The position numbers and the translations under genes were made by a program. From Microlunatus sagamiharensis (GTDB lineage: Bacteria > Actinomycetota > Actinomycetes > Propionibacteriales > Propionibacteriaceae), in contig NZ_LT629799.1 in NCBI RefSeq assembly GCF_900105785.1, positions 1,612,001 through 1,676,000 on the forward strand: a DNA stretch of 64,000 nucleotides, written 5' to 3'. Below the pieces are notes generated by a model. It had not been told where the DNA came from. It saw only the letters and a program-made list of their open reading frames with translations, and made no database searches. This document shows, piece by piece, positions 3,486-49,471 of the stretch (positions are counted from its first letter, which is position 1; each line of letters begins with the position of its first letter).

Positions 3486-3745
3486 CGCTCGCCGAGCTCG
3501 TCGAAAGGGCCGCGCCCCAGGACGCTCCCTGAGTTTGCCGCAGGGCTGCACCCCACGTCCCTGGGCTGCAACCCGGGACGCTCCCTGAGCTTGTCGAAGG
3601 GCCACGAAGCAGTCGGCTCCTGCCACCCGCGCGGAGAGGAACGCCACCCTCTTCGACCCTTCGACAGGCTCAGGGAGCGTTCCTCCAGCCCCTTCGACAG
3701 GCTCAGGGAGCGTTCCTCCAGCCCCTTCGACAGGCTCAGGGAGCG
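3486..3745. repeat. Cluster of six copies of a 23-bp dispersed palindromic-type repeat
   Basis: The 428-bp gap between the EEP and M6 genes holds six copies of a repeat with core CGCTCCCTGAGCTTGTCGAA plus GGG. On the minus sense are two degenerate copies (3486-3510 and 3523-3545) and one good copy (3579-3601). On the plus sense are three copies at 3657, 3690 and 3723 that form a tandem array with an exact 33-bp period. The same repeat appears beside the IS30 element at about 33.3 and 34.7 kb. Related REP-like repeats are widespread in high-GC genomes. Nothing else is visible in this gap apart from the terminator at its end. Confidence 0.85.
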
Positions 3746-45077: not shown

Positions 45078-45839
45078 CTAGGAAGAGGGCACCAGGGCGT
45101 CGTCGGGAGCCTCGACGTTGGTGAAGACGTTCTGCACGTCGTCGGAGTCCTCGAGGGCGTCGACGAGCTTCTCGAGCTTCTCGAGGGTCGGGAGGTCGGC
45201 CGGCTGGGTGAACTCCGGCACGAACGACACCTCGGCGGAGTCGTAGTCGAGCCCGGCCTCCTGCACGGCGGTGCGCACGGCCACGGTGTCGTTCGGGTCG
45301 CTGATGACCTCGAAGGCGTCGCCCAGGTCGTTGACCTCGTCGGGCCCGGCGTCGAGCGTCGCCTCGAGGACGTCGTCCTCGGTGAGCTCGCGCGACTCCT
45401 GCTTCTTGGGCAGGAGCACCACGCCCTTGCGGCTGAAGACCCGGGCGGTGGAGCCGACGTCGGCCATCGTCCCGCCGTTGCGGGTCACGGCGATGCGGAC
45501 CTCGGACGCCGAGCGGTTCCGGTTGTCGGTCAGGCACTCGATGAGGATCGCGATGCCGGCCGGGCCGTACGCCTCGTAGAACAGCGTCTCGTAGTCCGAG
45601 CCGCCGCCCTCGGCGCCGGAGCCGCGCTTGATGGCGCGCTCGATGTTGTCCTTGGGGACCGAGGTCTTGCGCGCCTTCTGCACGGCGTCGTACAGGGTCG
45701 GGTTGCCGTCGAGGTCACCCCCGCCGATCCGTGCCGCCACCTCGATGTTCTTGATGAGCTTGGCGAACGACTTGGCGCGGCGCGCGTCGACGACCGCCTT
45801 CTGGTGCTTGGTGGTTGCCCACTTGGAGTGACCCGACAT
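45078..45839 (-). CDS. yebC: YebC/PmpR family protein (TACO1-like translation/transcription factor)
   Basis: This is a 253-residue protein. The family N-terminus [29 protein letters not shown] is diagnostic (first residues [13 protein letters not shown]), followed by [36 protein letters not shown] and [15 protein letters not shown]. YebC proteins were named as transcriptional regulators, and recent work links them to relieving ribosome stalling. The C-terminal dozen residues are acidic. A TAGGAT box ends 8 nt before ATG 45839. It precedes ruvC in the conserved yebC-ruvCAB order. Confidence 0.95.
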
Positions 45840-45847
45840 GGTTCAGA

Positions 45848-45853
45848 ATCCTA
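45848..45853 (-). promoter_or_regulatory. -10 box for yebC, leaderless or very short leader
   Basis: TAGGAT on the minus strand ends 8 nt before the ATG at 45839. Confidence 0.45.
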
Positions 45854-45924
45854 GTCCCGCCCTGCGGTGCACCCCCAACGGAGCCCGGGCTCTCCGGTTC
45901 CTGGCTCGCACCCCAGCGGCAGAC

Positions 45925-45989
45925 CCGCGAACCGCTGACAGACGACAGCCGATTCGTCGAATCGGCTGTCGGGCGTCAGCGGTTCGCGG
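45925..45989. repeat. 65-bp near-perfect palindrome (copy A) at the 3' end of the DUF559 gene
   Basis: Outer arms of 15 bp (45925-45939 with 45975-45989, CCGCGAACCGCTGAC and complement) and inner arms of 14 bp (45943-45956 with 45958-45971, CGACAGCCGATTCG and complement) pair perfectly, separated by a symmetric 3x3 internal loop and one central T. The stop codon of the DUF559 gene (45976-45978) lies in the right outer arm. It could terminate that transcript, and it also sits upstream of yebC. Confidence 0.9.
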
Positions 45990-46884
45990 AGGACCACCGG
46001 CGGAGAGCGCGCTGCCGGCCGGTGGAGCCGTAGAGCGACAGGGCGACCAACGAGCGCCAGGCGTCGAGTCGCGCCGGCACCCAGGGACGTCCGAGCGCGG
46101 CGTCGGCGGCGGCGATGACGTCGCCGCCACGTCTCAGCACCTCCCGCGCCGTGTAGCCGCAGCGCTCCCAGCCCTCGTCGACGAGCCGGCGCTCGCGGGC
46201 GAGGTCCGTCCGGTGCGTCTCCGCCTCGCGGTGGTCGGCCCCGTCGTACTCGTGGATGCGGCGCGTCCCGACGAGCCAGAGGTCGGCGCGGGCGACGAAG
46301 GTTCCGTGCGTAGTCCAGATCTCGCGCTGCGGCTCGACCTCGACGTCGGCTGTCCGGTGGAGCACGCGCAGGACCGACTCCCACGCGGACTCGCTCCGTG
46401 CGTCGAGCAGCGGCAGCACGGCCCTCAGCAACGGTGTGCCCCGACGCCTGGCCCCGGTCGCGTCCCACAGCTCGTCCAGCGTGCAGTGCCCGAGCCGGAG
46501 GGCGGAGTCCCCGAGCGGGACGAGGTCGAGGACGTGGAGGTCGGCGGCGCAGGCCAGCAGCGTCTCGGCCGGTGTGGCCAGCCGGAGACCGTCGACCTCC
46601 TCGTACGCGGGCGGCGCAGCCAGGCGTACGACCTTCAGCCCCCGTCGCTGAGGATGCCGCTCGCGCTCGTCGACGGAGGCGAGCACGGGATGGGGCACCG
46701 AAGACGGGAGCCACCATCCCCGCGCCTCGGCTGCGGTCAGGTGGGTGAGGACCGCGCTGTCCGGCAGCACCTCGCACCAGCCGAGCAGCCGCTCGCGCAG
46801 GTCCGGTTCGGCGCTGCCGACGTGCACCCCGTGGGCCACACGGGCCCAGCCGGTCCGACGAACTCGTCCGCGTACGACCTCCAC
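45976..46884 (-). CDS. DUF559 (Vsr-like) endonuclease domain protein, flanked by palindromes
   Basis: This is a 302-residue protein. The N-terminal half resembles AbiEi-type antitoxin/winged-helix proteins common in actinobacteria (RTGWARVAHGVHV, SAVLTHLTAAEARGWWLP), and the C-terminal third is a DUF559/PD-(D/E)xK-like domain with ARADLWLVGTRRIHEYDGADH and DLARERRLVDEGWERCGYTAREVL (in part). Asp in ADLW and the EYDG Glu are the likely catalytic acids. The start lacks an obvious Shine-Dalgarno and the N-terminus looks short for the family, so it may be truncated. Related palindromes lie at its stop and 100 bp upstream of its start. Confidence 0.75.
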   Translation of the reverse strand: MEVVRGRVRRTGWARVAHGVHVGSAEPDLRERLLGWCEVLPDSAVLTHLTAAEARGWWLPSSVPHPVLASVDERERHPQRRGLKVVRLAAPPAYEEVDGLRLATPAETLLACAADLHVLDLVPLGDSALRLGHCTLDELWDATGARRRGTPLLRAVLPLLDARSESAWESVLRVLHRTADVEVEPQREIWTTHGTFVARADLWLVGTRRIHEYDGADHREAETHRTDLARERRLVDEGWERCGYTAREVLRRGGDVIAAADAALGRPWVPARLDAWRSLVALSLYGSTGRQRALRRWSSANR

Positions 46885-46986
46885 GCCGAAGCATTGCTGC
46901 GGCCGCGCTCGTCGTGCCGCTCGTCAGCGCCCCTTGTGCAGAACGCGCTCCGGTTCCGTCGGGGTTGTGGACAGCCCCATCCCCCG

Positions 46987-47047
46987 GCGAACCGCTGACG
47001 GACGACAGCGATCTGGCTCGATCTTCTGTCTTTCGTCAGCGTTTCGC
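46987..47047. repeat. 61-bp palindrome (copy B) upstream of the DUF559 gene
   Basis: Outer arms GCGAACCGCTGACG (46987-47000) and CGTCAGCGTTTCGC (47034-47047) pair with one mismatch. The interior pairs imperfectly (ACAG/CTGT, GATC/GATC). It shares the left sequence GCGAACCGCTGAC-x-GACGACAGC and the right CGTCAGCG-x-TTCGCGGAGG with copy A in the same orientation, so it is a diverged direct copy. It lies 58 bp past the stop of the FAR-HAD gene. The remaining bases of the 220-bp gap show no gene. Confidence 0.85.
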
Positions 47048-47104
47048 GGAGGTGAGGCTGCGCGCGAGCCGAGGAGGCCTGTGGGGTGAGCGGGGCGGGC
47101 GAGC

Positions 47105-49471
47105 TCAGGAGGAGGGCAGGTGCCAGCGGGGGCTCGGCGACTTCGTCCTCCACTCCACGATCGACCACTGGTTGCGCTGGGCGGCGCGCATCAGCGAGAT
47201 GTCCGGGCTCACCGCGACCGGGTTGCCGACCGTGGAGAGCATCGGCAGGTCGGAGTGGCTGTCGGCGTAGGCGAAGCTCTTGGTCAGGTCGACCCCGTGC
47301 AGGGACGCGTAGTGGCGCAACCACGCCGAGCGCGACTCCCCCACCAGCGGCGGCGTCTTGAGGAAGCCGGTCGCGCGGCCCTCGGCGTCGGTCCCGAGCT
47401 CGGCGGCCAGGATCACGTCGAAGAGCTCGCGCAGCGGCCGGGTCAGCACCGAGACCGCACCGGTGATGAGGATCGTCGTGTGCCCGGCGGCCCGGTGCTC
47501 CTCGATGCGCTGGAGGGCGTCCGGCGCGACCCGGCTGAGGATGAAGTCGTTCATCGTCGTGTCGACGCGCTGCTCGAGCTCGGCGAGGTCGAGCCCGCGG
47601 TAGCGGCGGTAGACGGCGCGCAGGAAGCTGCCGCGGTCGCGCTGCTCGGTGAGCAGGTAGCCGGGCAGCCGTCCCAGCACCCCGCCGACCTCGACGAGCT
47701 GCTCCACCGGCGAGAGCTCCGGAAGGCGGGCCCACAGGTACTGCTCGATGACGTTGGTCGACATGATCGTGCCGTCGAGGTCGAAGACCGCGACCGCCGA
47801 CGAACCGGCCGTGTTGGCCGAGAGGTCGCGCATCGTCGTCGGCCGTGACCCGCGACGCTTGCGCAGCGCGTCCATCCGGCGTACGGAGGCGGTCACCGAG
47901 GGGCAGTGGACCTCCTCGATGTAGGTCGTCCAGTCGTAGCCGGCCGTGTCGAAGGCGAAGGCGTCGACGTCGGCCGCGTCGAGCGAGCGCGACAGCGCGA
48001 GCGTGTTGTCGTCGACGAAGTGCAGCTCCGACTGGGCGTACTCGTTGTAGAGCGTGTGGTAGCGCCGCCAGAAGTCGAGGCGCCCGCGCAGCTTGTCGAG
48101 GTCGCGGGCCAGCTTGCGGCTCCGGTTGGACCGCGGGGCGCGCGAGACGATCCGCTCGGCCACCCCGTGGGCGCGCTCGGAGGTCGACAGCAGCCGCTCC
48201 ACCGACACCGCGCCGGGGAACGTCCACTCGGGAAGCGGGGCGCCCGGCTTGGTGACGTTCTCCAGCGGGTGCGCGGTGAAGTACGAGCGGATGTGGCCGT
48301 ACATGTCGTGGAAGGTCAGCGGGTTCCGGGCGCCGGAGCTGACGTGGTAGTACTCCGGCTCCCCCGGCGTCGGGTCCGTGGCGCAGACGGCGAGGATCGC
48401 GTTGACGACCAGGTCGCAGGGCACGATGTCGAGCACCGAGTCGGCCGAGGCCGGGAACTCCGGCAGCTCGCCGCGGCCGTAGGCCAGGATCAGCGGCTCG
48501 GCCATCTTGAAGCCCTCGATCCAGCCCGGGTACGGGTGGAGCCAGCTCGACTCGACGATGGCGGGGCGGACGATCGAGACCTCGATGTCGGCGCCGAGGT
48601 CGGTGACCACGCGCTCGCCGAGGGCCTTGGTGAAGGTGTAGACGTCGGTCCAGCCGAGCGAGCGGGCCCGCTCGGTGCCGGCGGCGACGAGCTCGGCGGT
48701 CACCCACTCCTGGCGGCGGCGCTCGGTGTCGGCCGCCGTGGTCAGGTAGCCGGCCTGGCGGTGCTGGCGCTCGGCCTGGTGGCGCAGCGCGGTCAGCTGC
48801 TCCGGCATCCGCGAGGCCGCCTCGACCTGCTCGCGCATGGCCAGCCCGGCGCGGGTCTCGGCCTCGTAGTCGATGCCGTGCACGTGGCCGGCCTCGGGGA
48901 TCGCGCCGCGACGACGGCCCGCGGTGTACGCGGTGGAGATGTGGACGTAGTGCGGGACCTTGGTGCGCTCGCCGTCGGGTCCGGTGACGGCCTCGAGCAT
49001 CCGCTCCATGAGCCGCTGCGTGCCGACGACGTTCGTCGTGAACGCCTGGTCGATCGGCGGGTCGAAGGACACGTCGCCCGCGCAGTGCACGACGACGTCG
49101 AGGTCGGCGGGCAGCTCGGGGACGTTCGGCAGGTCGCCCTCGATGACCTCGACGCGCGCCAGCAGCGCGTCGAGACCCCCGGCCTCCTCGGCCAGCGGGG
49201 CGAAGATCTTCTTCTTCAGCAGGCTGCGGACACGGGCCTCGGCGCCGGCCGAGCCCTTGCGTCGCACCAGCACCGACGGGGTCGTGCCGGGCAGCTCGGT
49301 CAGCATCTTCCACAGCAGCTGCTCGCCGATGAAGCCGGTCACCCCGGTCATGACGATCTTCTTGCCGTCGAGGAGGTCGCGCAGGCGCCCGTCCAGGAGC
49401 GGGCCGTGGACCGGCTCGCGCAGCTCGCTCAGCGCGGGCCCGCGGTGGAAGGTGTCGGCGGGGACGCTCAT
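47105..49471 (-). CDS. Fused fatty acyl-CoA reductase-like dehydrogenase and HAD-IB phosphatase
   Basis: This is a 788-residue two-domain protein. Residues about 35-400 form an extended SDR of the fatty acyl-CoA reductase (male-sterility NAD_binding_4) type: [15 protein letters not shown] (NADP loop), [30 protein letters not shown] (active-site YxxxK) and [22 protein letters not shown], with a FAR_C-like linker. Residues about 560-780 form a HAD-IB hydrolase: [11 protein letters not shown] (nucleophile Asp563), ILITGAV and [13 protein letters not shown]. It may reduce acyl thioesters while hydrolysing a phosphorylated lipid or intermediate. ATG 49471 overlaps the hisA stop by 4 bp. Confidence 0.8.

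Follow-up and report, generated by a model that had tools for sequence, protein, structure and literature searches.

A gene for a probable DUF559 nuclease in Microlunatus sagamiharensis lies between two copies of one palindrome, and we think it probable that the gene and its two palindromes form a single evolutionary unit, one case of a large actinobacterial family that resembles the REP/RAYT system but is built on an unrelated PD-(D/E)xK nuclease. In such a unit the nuclease gene (~300 aa, Vsr-like, DUF559) has a copy of its private palindrome (~55–95 bp) on either side, and solo palindromes occur elsewhere in the genome, mostly between genes. What argues for this reading is the bracketing of the genes, the private matching of their ends, the joint change of both ends, the dispersed solos, the presence or absence of units and solos at the same sites, the inversion of units in place and the conserved active site. 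DUF559 proteins are found in many copies in actinobacteria and are, to our knowledge, nearly uncharacterised. Private end palindromes with dispersed cognates give each enzyme a concrete candidate substrate, which makes its function directly testable. Taken as a whole, this looks like a previously undescribed self-spreading repeat system.

A nuclease gene between two palindromes

The stretch of DNA analyzed here (the window, 64,000 nucleotides, G000:C1:1612001-1676000) belongs to a genome of 4.405 Mb in a single contig. The nuclease gene lies on the minus strand at 45976..46884 and encodes 302 aa, with an alternative open start 13 codons further upstream; by ORF reading, the unit has yebC-like and HAD-type-like genes as neighbors. 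At its downstream end is palindrome A (45927..45987, 61 bp, no strand assigned), with outer arms GCGAACCGCTGAC / GTCAGCGGTTCGC, and at its upstream end palindrome B (46987..47047, 61 bp, likewise without strand), which belongs to the same family and is less perfectly symmetric. The original prediction had described copy A as a nearly perfect foldback with the stop codon of the gene in its right arm. This is what we see: palindrome A widens to a 65-bp dyad (45925-45989) with 32-nt arms that are 91% complementary, and the right arm holds the stop codon. Copy B, placed by the prediction about 100 bp upstream of the gene, ends 102 bp before the annotated start, and a simple scan of this spacer (46885..46986, no strand assigned), the presumed promoter region, returned no sigma-70-type promoter-like site.

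The starts of the two palindromes are 1060 bp apart and each palindrome is followed by GCGGAGG in the same orientation. A 22-nt outer pattern with up to three mismatches allowed occurs four times in the window, and these are the four arms, in agreement with the predicted sharing of outer arms and GCGGAGG; 0.02 occurrences were expected and none of 100 shuffles reached four. By this count and the shuffles, chance does not account for the A/B pair. Palindrome A has a dyad score of 47 bits and palindrome B of 30 bits, and both are among the 10 dyads of at least 28 bits in 184 kb of control sequence (window included).

Matched ends in the genus and the phylum

A genus set was assembled from 93 PF04480 matches in 20 genomes (own genome included), of which G004:C6 (internal stop), G014:C140 and G013:C380 (contig ends) and G017:C140 (an oversight) were omitted; the 89 used and four paralogs from the own genome gave 93 loci, and the statistics refer to 92 of these, one without a readable stop being left out. 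Dyads of at least 24 bits are concentrated at the gene ends, with 45 in the 100-bp bin after the stop vs. 1.05 expected from the control rate, 32 in the bins from -1200 to -900 vs. 3.1 expected, and two in the gene body (-900 to -100). With a threshold of 22 bits, 55 loci have a stop-side dyad (spanning the stop codon in 34), 38 an upstream dyad, 28 both and 65 either, and the 27 loci that are dyad-free at both ends count against the unit reading. Among 63 control genes, 10 have a dyad at the stop, eight upstream and two at both ends; gene-end dyads are therefore not rare as such.

A stronger test than dyad counts was to search each upstream flank against all 92 downstream flanks. The own downstream flank was the best match in 38 of the 92 loci, compared with two of 63 control genes; the remaining 54, where it was not, count against the unit reading. 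Own pairs reached 35 bits or more in 39 of 92 loci, vs. 0.4% of the 8372 cross pairs and two of 63 controls. The pair in the window is one case of a general pattern. One control gene, the aminotransferase-like L141:16503-17363, has dyad-free flanks that match each other at 99 bits. Downstream of the nuclease gene of L076 there are two dyads of 85 bp, at +20 and +321 relative to the stop, and L111 has two of 59 bp at -10 and +405; these paired dyads of equal length are perhaps repeated copies of a unit end.

In an even sample of 119 genomes from the phylum, 37 had a match at E ≤ 1e-5. Beyond the genus, 29 new loci were read from the matches listed, 26 were testable, and the own ends were the best match in 12. 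Four of these 12 rest on matches of 18–32 bp (L189, L192, L204 and L211), and L189 is AT-rich, where chance dyads are abundant. The strong cases include L200 (98% over 54 bp) and L212 (84% over 146 bp). Of the proteins with the highest DUF559 scores, L185-L188 (open frames of 126–254 aa), L185 fell outside the test and the other three are without matched ends. In the Nocardioides relatives L055 and L056, own related flank pairs seem, by eye, to be present.

The genome of M. sagamiharensis itself contains several such units, and 10 of its 11 DUF559 loci have a dyad of at least 24 bits at one or both ends. The closest paralog (637966-638868, 52% identity) is bracketed by two 61-nt repeats beginning GACCACTGGTC that are 72% alike and quite unlike the window family in sequence. 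The only DUF559 locus here without an end dyad is L012, a 148-aa frame at 2936295-2936495 of the genome.

The nuclease

The identification of the protein as DUF559 holds through its relatives, which exceed the Pfam cut-off for PF04480 (20.6 bits), and through the active-site residues that it keeps, but the window protein itself scores 15 bits, below that cut-off. We aligned 89 of 95 proteins (230–345 aa; six were left out by length). E169, D201 and E212 (302-aa numbering) are invariant in all 89, while D214 is found in 84, G215 in 88, D227 in 86 and R230 in 82; E169, D201, E212, D214, D227 and R230 are the active-site residues of the window protein. An acidic pattern of this kind is that of a working PD-(D/E)xK nuclease. 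Since these residues are conserved, catalysis, beyond mere DNA binding, seems to be under selection. An H-U-H at any one column was present in at most one of the 89 aligned proteins, and the five members scanned had no Pfam match to a Y1 transposase.

An AlphaFold2 model from four sequences was poor (pLDDT 49.9) and went unused, the best match of a relative among PDB sequences was 3hrl, an 'endonuclease-like protein' (E 0.028), and the PDB sequences, searched by profile with A1, yielded nothing better than E 1.4. At the N-terminus there are AbiEi matches, all below cut-off: 19.5 bits for the L019 type, 13.9 for L127 and 12.8 for L009. An AbiE type IV toxin-antitoxin pair would have an AbiEii toxin gene alongside; the neighboring frames in the window read as yebC-like and HAD-type-like. 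A phage or plasmid element was rejected, as there was no phage match and the two plasmid matches had identities of 29 and 38% over 78 and 48%. A defence system was rejected likewise, the window protein and its ortholog having no PADLOC and no meaningful NCBIfam match.

Solo palindromes

Exact and relaxed searches found five copies of the window palindrome in M. sagamiharensis: the two at the nuclease gene and three solos of 61 bp at 924422-924482, 2238331-2238391 and 2864339-2864399. The third of these has a hydrolase-like gene on one side and the RNase P RNA gene on the other. Using tblastn, no DUF559 remains were found alongside the three solos. Microlunatus flavus CGMCC 4.6856 (G005), which has an ortholog of the window protein with 85% identity (L054), contains 17 window-family places at E ≤ 1e-4, two at the gene and 15 solos. 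The other 18 genomes of the genus had no match to the window-family part of the query at E ≤ 1e-4, which is weak evidence of absence since they include G001, where a diverged version of the window unit is present.

The original prediction had given the palindromes a size of 61–65 bp. Their presence is confirmed, but the size is a single one: all 24 window-family members found in three genomes are exactly 61 bp, with lengths of 58–63 bp allowed. Conservation in these members covers the outer 12 bp and an inner CGAC, and the center is variable. Of 696 symmetric cells, 511 (73%) pair, vs. 22–23% when the sequence is slid by one. Inspected by eye, none of the 24 carries a terminal GTAG or CGTC tag.

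Among 14 M. flavus solos, 12 come after at least one gene end according to crude ORF calls; L248 lies between divergent genes, and L244 within a called frame, at its end. The suggested arm search of the genome and its relatives returned palindromes that are enriched at DUF559 gene ends, yet also stand after unrelated genes. The idea that solos are the remains of whole units was rejected: when 36 solo loci were searched by tblastn with 89 nuclease proteins, nothing came up beyond two weak, short matches (39 and 52 aa; E 0.002 and 0.004).

Eight of the 10 palindrome families of this genome, the window family counted, have at least one solo. Counts for the other families come from at most 40 scored candidates and are lower bounds: at least five for D19, three for E20, six for B17 (at E ≤ 2.5e-4, one being a 30-bp match), two each for H11 and F09, and one each for I13 and J15, whereas C18 and G10 had only partial matches of 23–27 bp among those candidates. 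Two of the D19 solos are ~130 bp apart (genome 2606899-2606965 and 2607095-2607159; L262).

Occupied, empty and inverted sites

Orthologous sites in relatives were read from 26 flanks of this genome, among the matches listed. The window site is occupied in G000, G005 and G001, where the unit has diverged. It is empty, with both flanks matched, in G007 and in G002, which has a 90-bp dyad of another sequence there; six further genomes matched on the yebC side only and are uninformative. The E20 site is empty in G001 (with a 57-bp dyad of another sequence), G006 and G010, and the C18 site in G005 (~40 bp between the flanks), G008, G002 and G007. Occupied and empty sites exist as pairs. The outcome named beforehand as refuting was an absence of such pairs together with a lack of enrichment near DUF559 genes; we found both pairs and enrichment. 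With private bracketing of this gene and many relatives, and with dispersed cognate solos, the REP-like part of the prediction gains support; self-mobilisation by the nuclease and its recognition of the hairpin are conjectural.

At four sites (C18, J15, I13 and the L057 group) units occur in opposite orientations between one pair of flanks, and the E20 unit may be inverted in G007 as well, judging from one flank and a piece of 120 bp. Proteins at the same site can be far more diverged than the flanking DNA: 59% vs. 80 and 90% for L009/L061, 65% vs. 80 and 90% for L011/L080, and 68% vs. 86 and 94% for L018/L134. The window unit is unlike these pairs, its protein being 85% identical between G000 and G005. 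At the orthologous sites read, divergence of the intergenic DNA among the species is too great to define an exact junction of insertion or a duplicated target.

The solo at 924422 is also present in M. flavus, with the M. flavus version of the arms, while that at 2238331 is absent in G001 and the site at 2864339 holds other dyads in G005, G001 and G008. Conversely, all 14 M. flavus solo sites have a matching flank in this genome. At seven (L244, L248, L250, L251, L253, L254 and L256) both flanks align and the spot is dyad-free. L255 and L258 have the palindrome of another unit here (E20-like and D19, respectively), L236 the dyad of a further repeat, and L257 a diverged palindrome with both arms changed; L243, L247 and L252 aligned on one flank only. 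Movement appears to be rare for whole units, and turnover more frequent for solos. Four species each have a different palindrome at the spot immediately upstream of the RNase P RNA gene (2864339-2864399, which is L007:4340-4400; L160:407-446; L161:328-361; L172:602-685), as if it were a palindrome hot spot.

Joint change of the two ends

When only the dyads were compared, the two ends of one element were more similar to each other than to the ends of the other species' element in 10 of 11 same-site pairs from seven sites, the exception being L066/L085; five site groups dropped out because fewer than two members showed both dyads. This comparison supersedes one with wider regions reaching into the orthologous flanks, where within-element similarity was the higher in 11 of 19 pairs. 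At site D19, for example, CTCGCACC is present at both ends in this genome and GAAGTCTGCGCG at both ends in G001. Judged from these sequences, palindrome evolution is faster than protein evolution.

Dyads can be shared by homologous elements from different sites, and DNA homology then ends at or near the dyads; between L117 and L127, from the same genome, the match spans -959 to +50 relative to the stop. Near-identical copies of a unit within one genome were not seen, the best different-site pair reaching 74%. Over 1400 different-site pairs, arm similarity correlates with protein similarity at rho 0.115, a weak relation due largely to one clade, and none of 300 permutations was as high.

Alternative explanations

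The nuclease gene might only ride between two host hairpins, that is, intergenic terminators or general repeats spread or homogenized by host recombination or another transposase. The gene-end position of most M. flavus solos would agree with this, as would the dyads at 10 of 63 control stops and the intergenic spot that holds dyads of different families in different species. What host hairpins do not predict is a palindrome family of its own for each nuclease gene, and the 38 of 92 loci whose two ends match privately, vs. two of 63 controls, also speak against them, making this explanation unlikely. The original prediction had allowed that both palindromes are merely related terminators. Terminators alone are insufficient given the private matched ends, and a scan for intrinsic terminators (hairpin plus T-run), which is blind to T-less ones, found no site in 45700-47300. 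The palindromes may act as terminators as a side effect.

If the protein were an autoregulator with an AbiEi-like N-terminal part, the palindromes could be its operators and the solos its regulon. Palindromes private to each protein are what one would expect of operators, and some members do have the weak AbiEi matches noted above. However, a symmetry of 55–95 bp is long for an operator, an end is detectable more often on the stop side (55 of 92) than on the promoter side (38 of 92), the catalytic residues are invariant, and in-place inversions and solo turnover would be left unexplained; we find operators quite improbable. Homing, finally, would have the nuclease cut a solo palindrome at an unoccupied site and repair copy the unit in, in either orientation as the target is symmetric, so that solos are empty targets. 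Units present or absent at orthologous sites and in both orientations would follow, and replacement would give same-site proteins more diverged than their flanks, as in L009/L061. Yet at the few empty sites read, the dyad belongs to another family (the E20 site in G001, the A16 site in G002) or is missing, and no site was found with the unit in one genome and its cognate solo in another. We give homing only a slight chance.

Relation to known systems

The evolutionary unit proposed here is closest to the REP/RAYT system, or REPtron. RAYT genes are reported to sit between two inverted REPs, and orthologous genes to keep their position while their REPs change and stay palindromic (PMC2817692); REPs carry a GTAG tag, catalysis is of the HUH type and single-stranded REPs are processed (PMC3733652, PMC8266576). 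Both systems have a nuclease gene between two cognate palindromes (PMC2817692, PMC3733652, PMC8266576), dispersed and mostly intergenic solos (here in low copy numbers), stable gene positions between orthologs with palindromes that change and remain palindromic, and several separate gene-palindrome pairs per genome. They differ in the enzyme (PD-(D/E)xK-like here, an HUH tyrosine transposase there), in palindrome length (55–95 bp vs. 20–40 bp), in the GTAG or CGTC tag, not seen in the window family, and in copy number (up to 17 found here, usually >100 for REPs). The copies here are also direct, so far as their symmetry allows judging, whereas RAYT genes lie between inverted REPs. By this analogy the system would work like a REPtron without being one: layout and manner of evolution match, while enzyme, length, tag and copy number differ.

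IS200/IS605 elements, described in the RAYT papers, are also small single-gene units with hairpin ends, but theirs is an HUH enzyme, and we see neither an HUH motif nor near-identical copies. Caulobacter VsrA has a DUF559 domain, and its discussed role is that of a nuclease for mismatch repair linked to a cytosine methyltransferase (PMC12907096). Vsr and DUF559 proteins share with ours a probable nuclease domain whose acidic active site is of the same type (PMC12907096); the context of VsrA is mismatch repair, and the word palindrome is absent from the main text of that paper. Homing endonuclease genes are similarly present or absent at fixed sites, but the flanks here are two full palindromes rather than target halves, and no cognate empty target was found at the few sites read. 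We found no description of palindromes at DUF559 genes in the open-access literature; most subscription papers were outside this search.

A possible mechanism

The nuclease would bind the DNA of its cognate palindrome, probably extruded into a hairpin or cruciform, and would nick it. Copying from the nicked end could then spread the palindrome elsewhere, or one end of the unit could repair the other. Nicking and copying of the own palindrome would explain both the dispersal and the concerted change of the ends, and the symmetry of the ends would explain units in both orientations. Among the dyad mismatches, G:T and A:C are about equally frequent (83 vs. 100 downstream, 68 vs. 68 upstream), and this lack of wobble bias suggests that the palindrome acts as DNA and not as RNA; a sense-strand RNA hairpin was rejected on the same grounds.

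More tentatively, these units may be a new class of mobile DNA, widespread in Actinomycetota, in which PD-(D/E)xK 'palindrome nucleases' would nick their own extruded palindrome, spread it, homogenize both gene ends and flip or exchange the gene in place, with many enzyme-palindrome pairs per genome and an origin independent of HUH-driven REP systems. Mobile-repeat systems are classed by their enzyme, and this would count as a new class because we know of none that uses this one; that status would weaken if the nuclease proves idle. If the proposal is true, REP-like repeats evolved at least twice, with unrelated nucleases, one genome holds about ten separate nuclease-palindrome pairs, and there is an origin for intergenic palindromes of these genomes that are otherwise taken for terminators.

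Other palindromes

Two further observations concern palindromes away from the nuclease genes discussed above or of another sequence. A very strong dyad (L140:13121-13200, 57.5 bits) lies in a control stretch of G003, beside no gene examined. A hairpin with CCCTTCGACAGGCTCAGGG-type arms is frequent, occurring in the window at 3575-3683, at L179:440-486, in the upstream dyad of L107 and at L270:684-730, and may be a separate repeat family.
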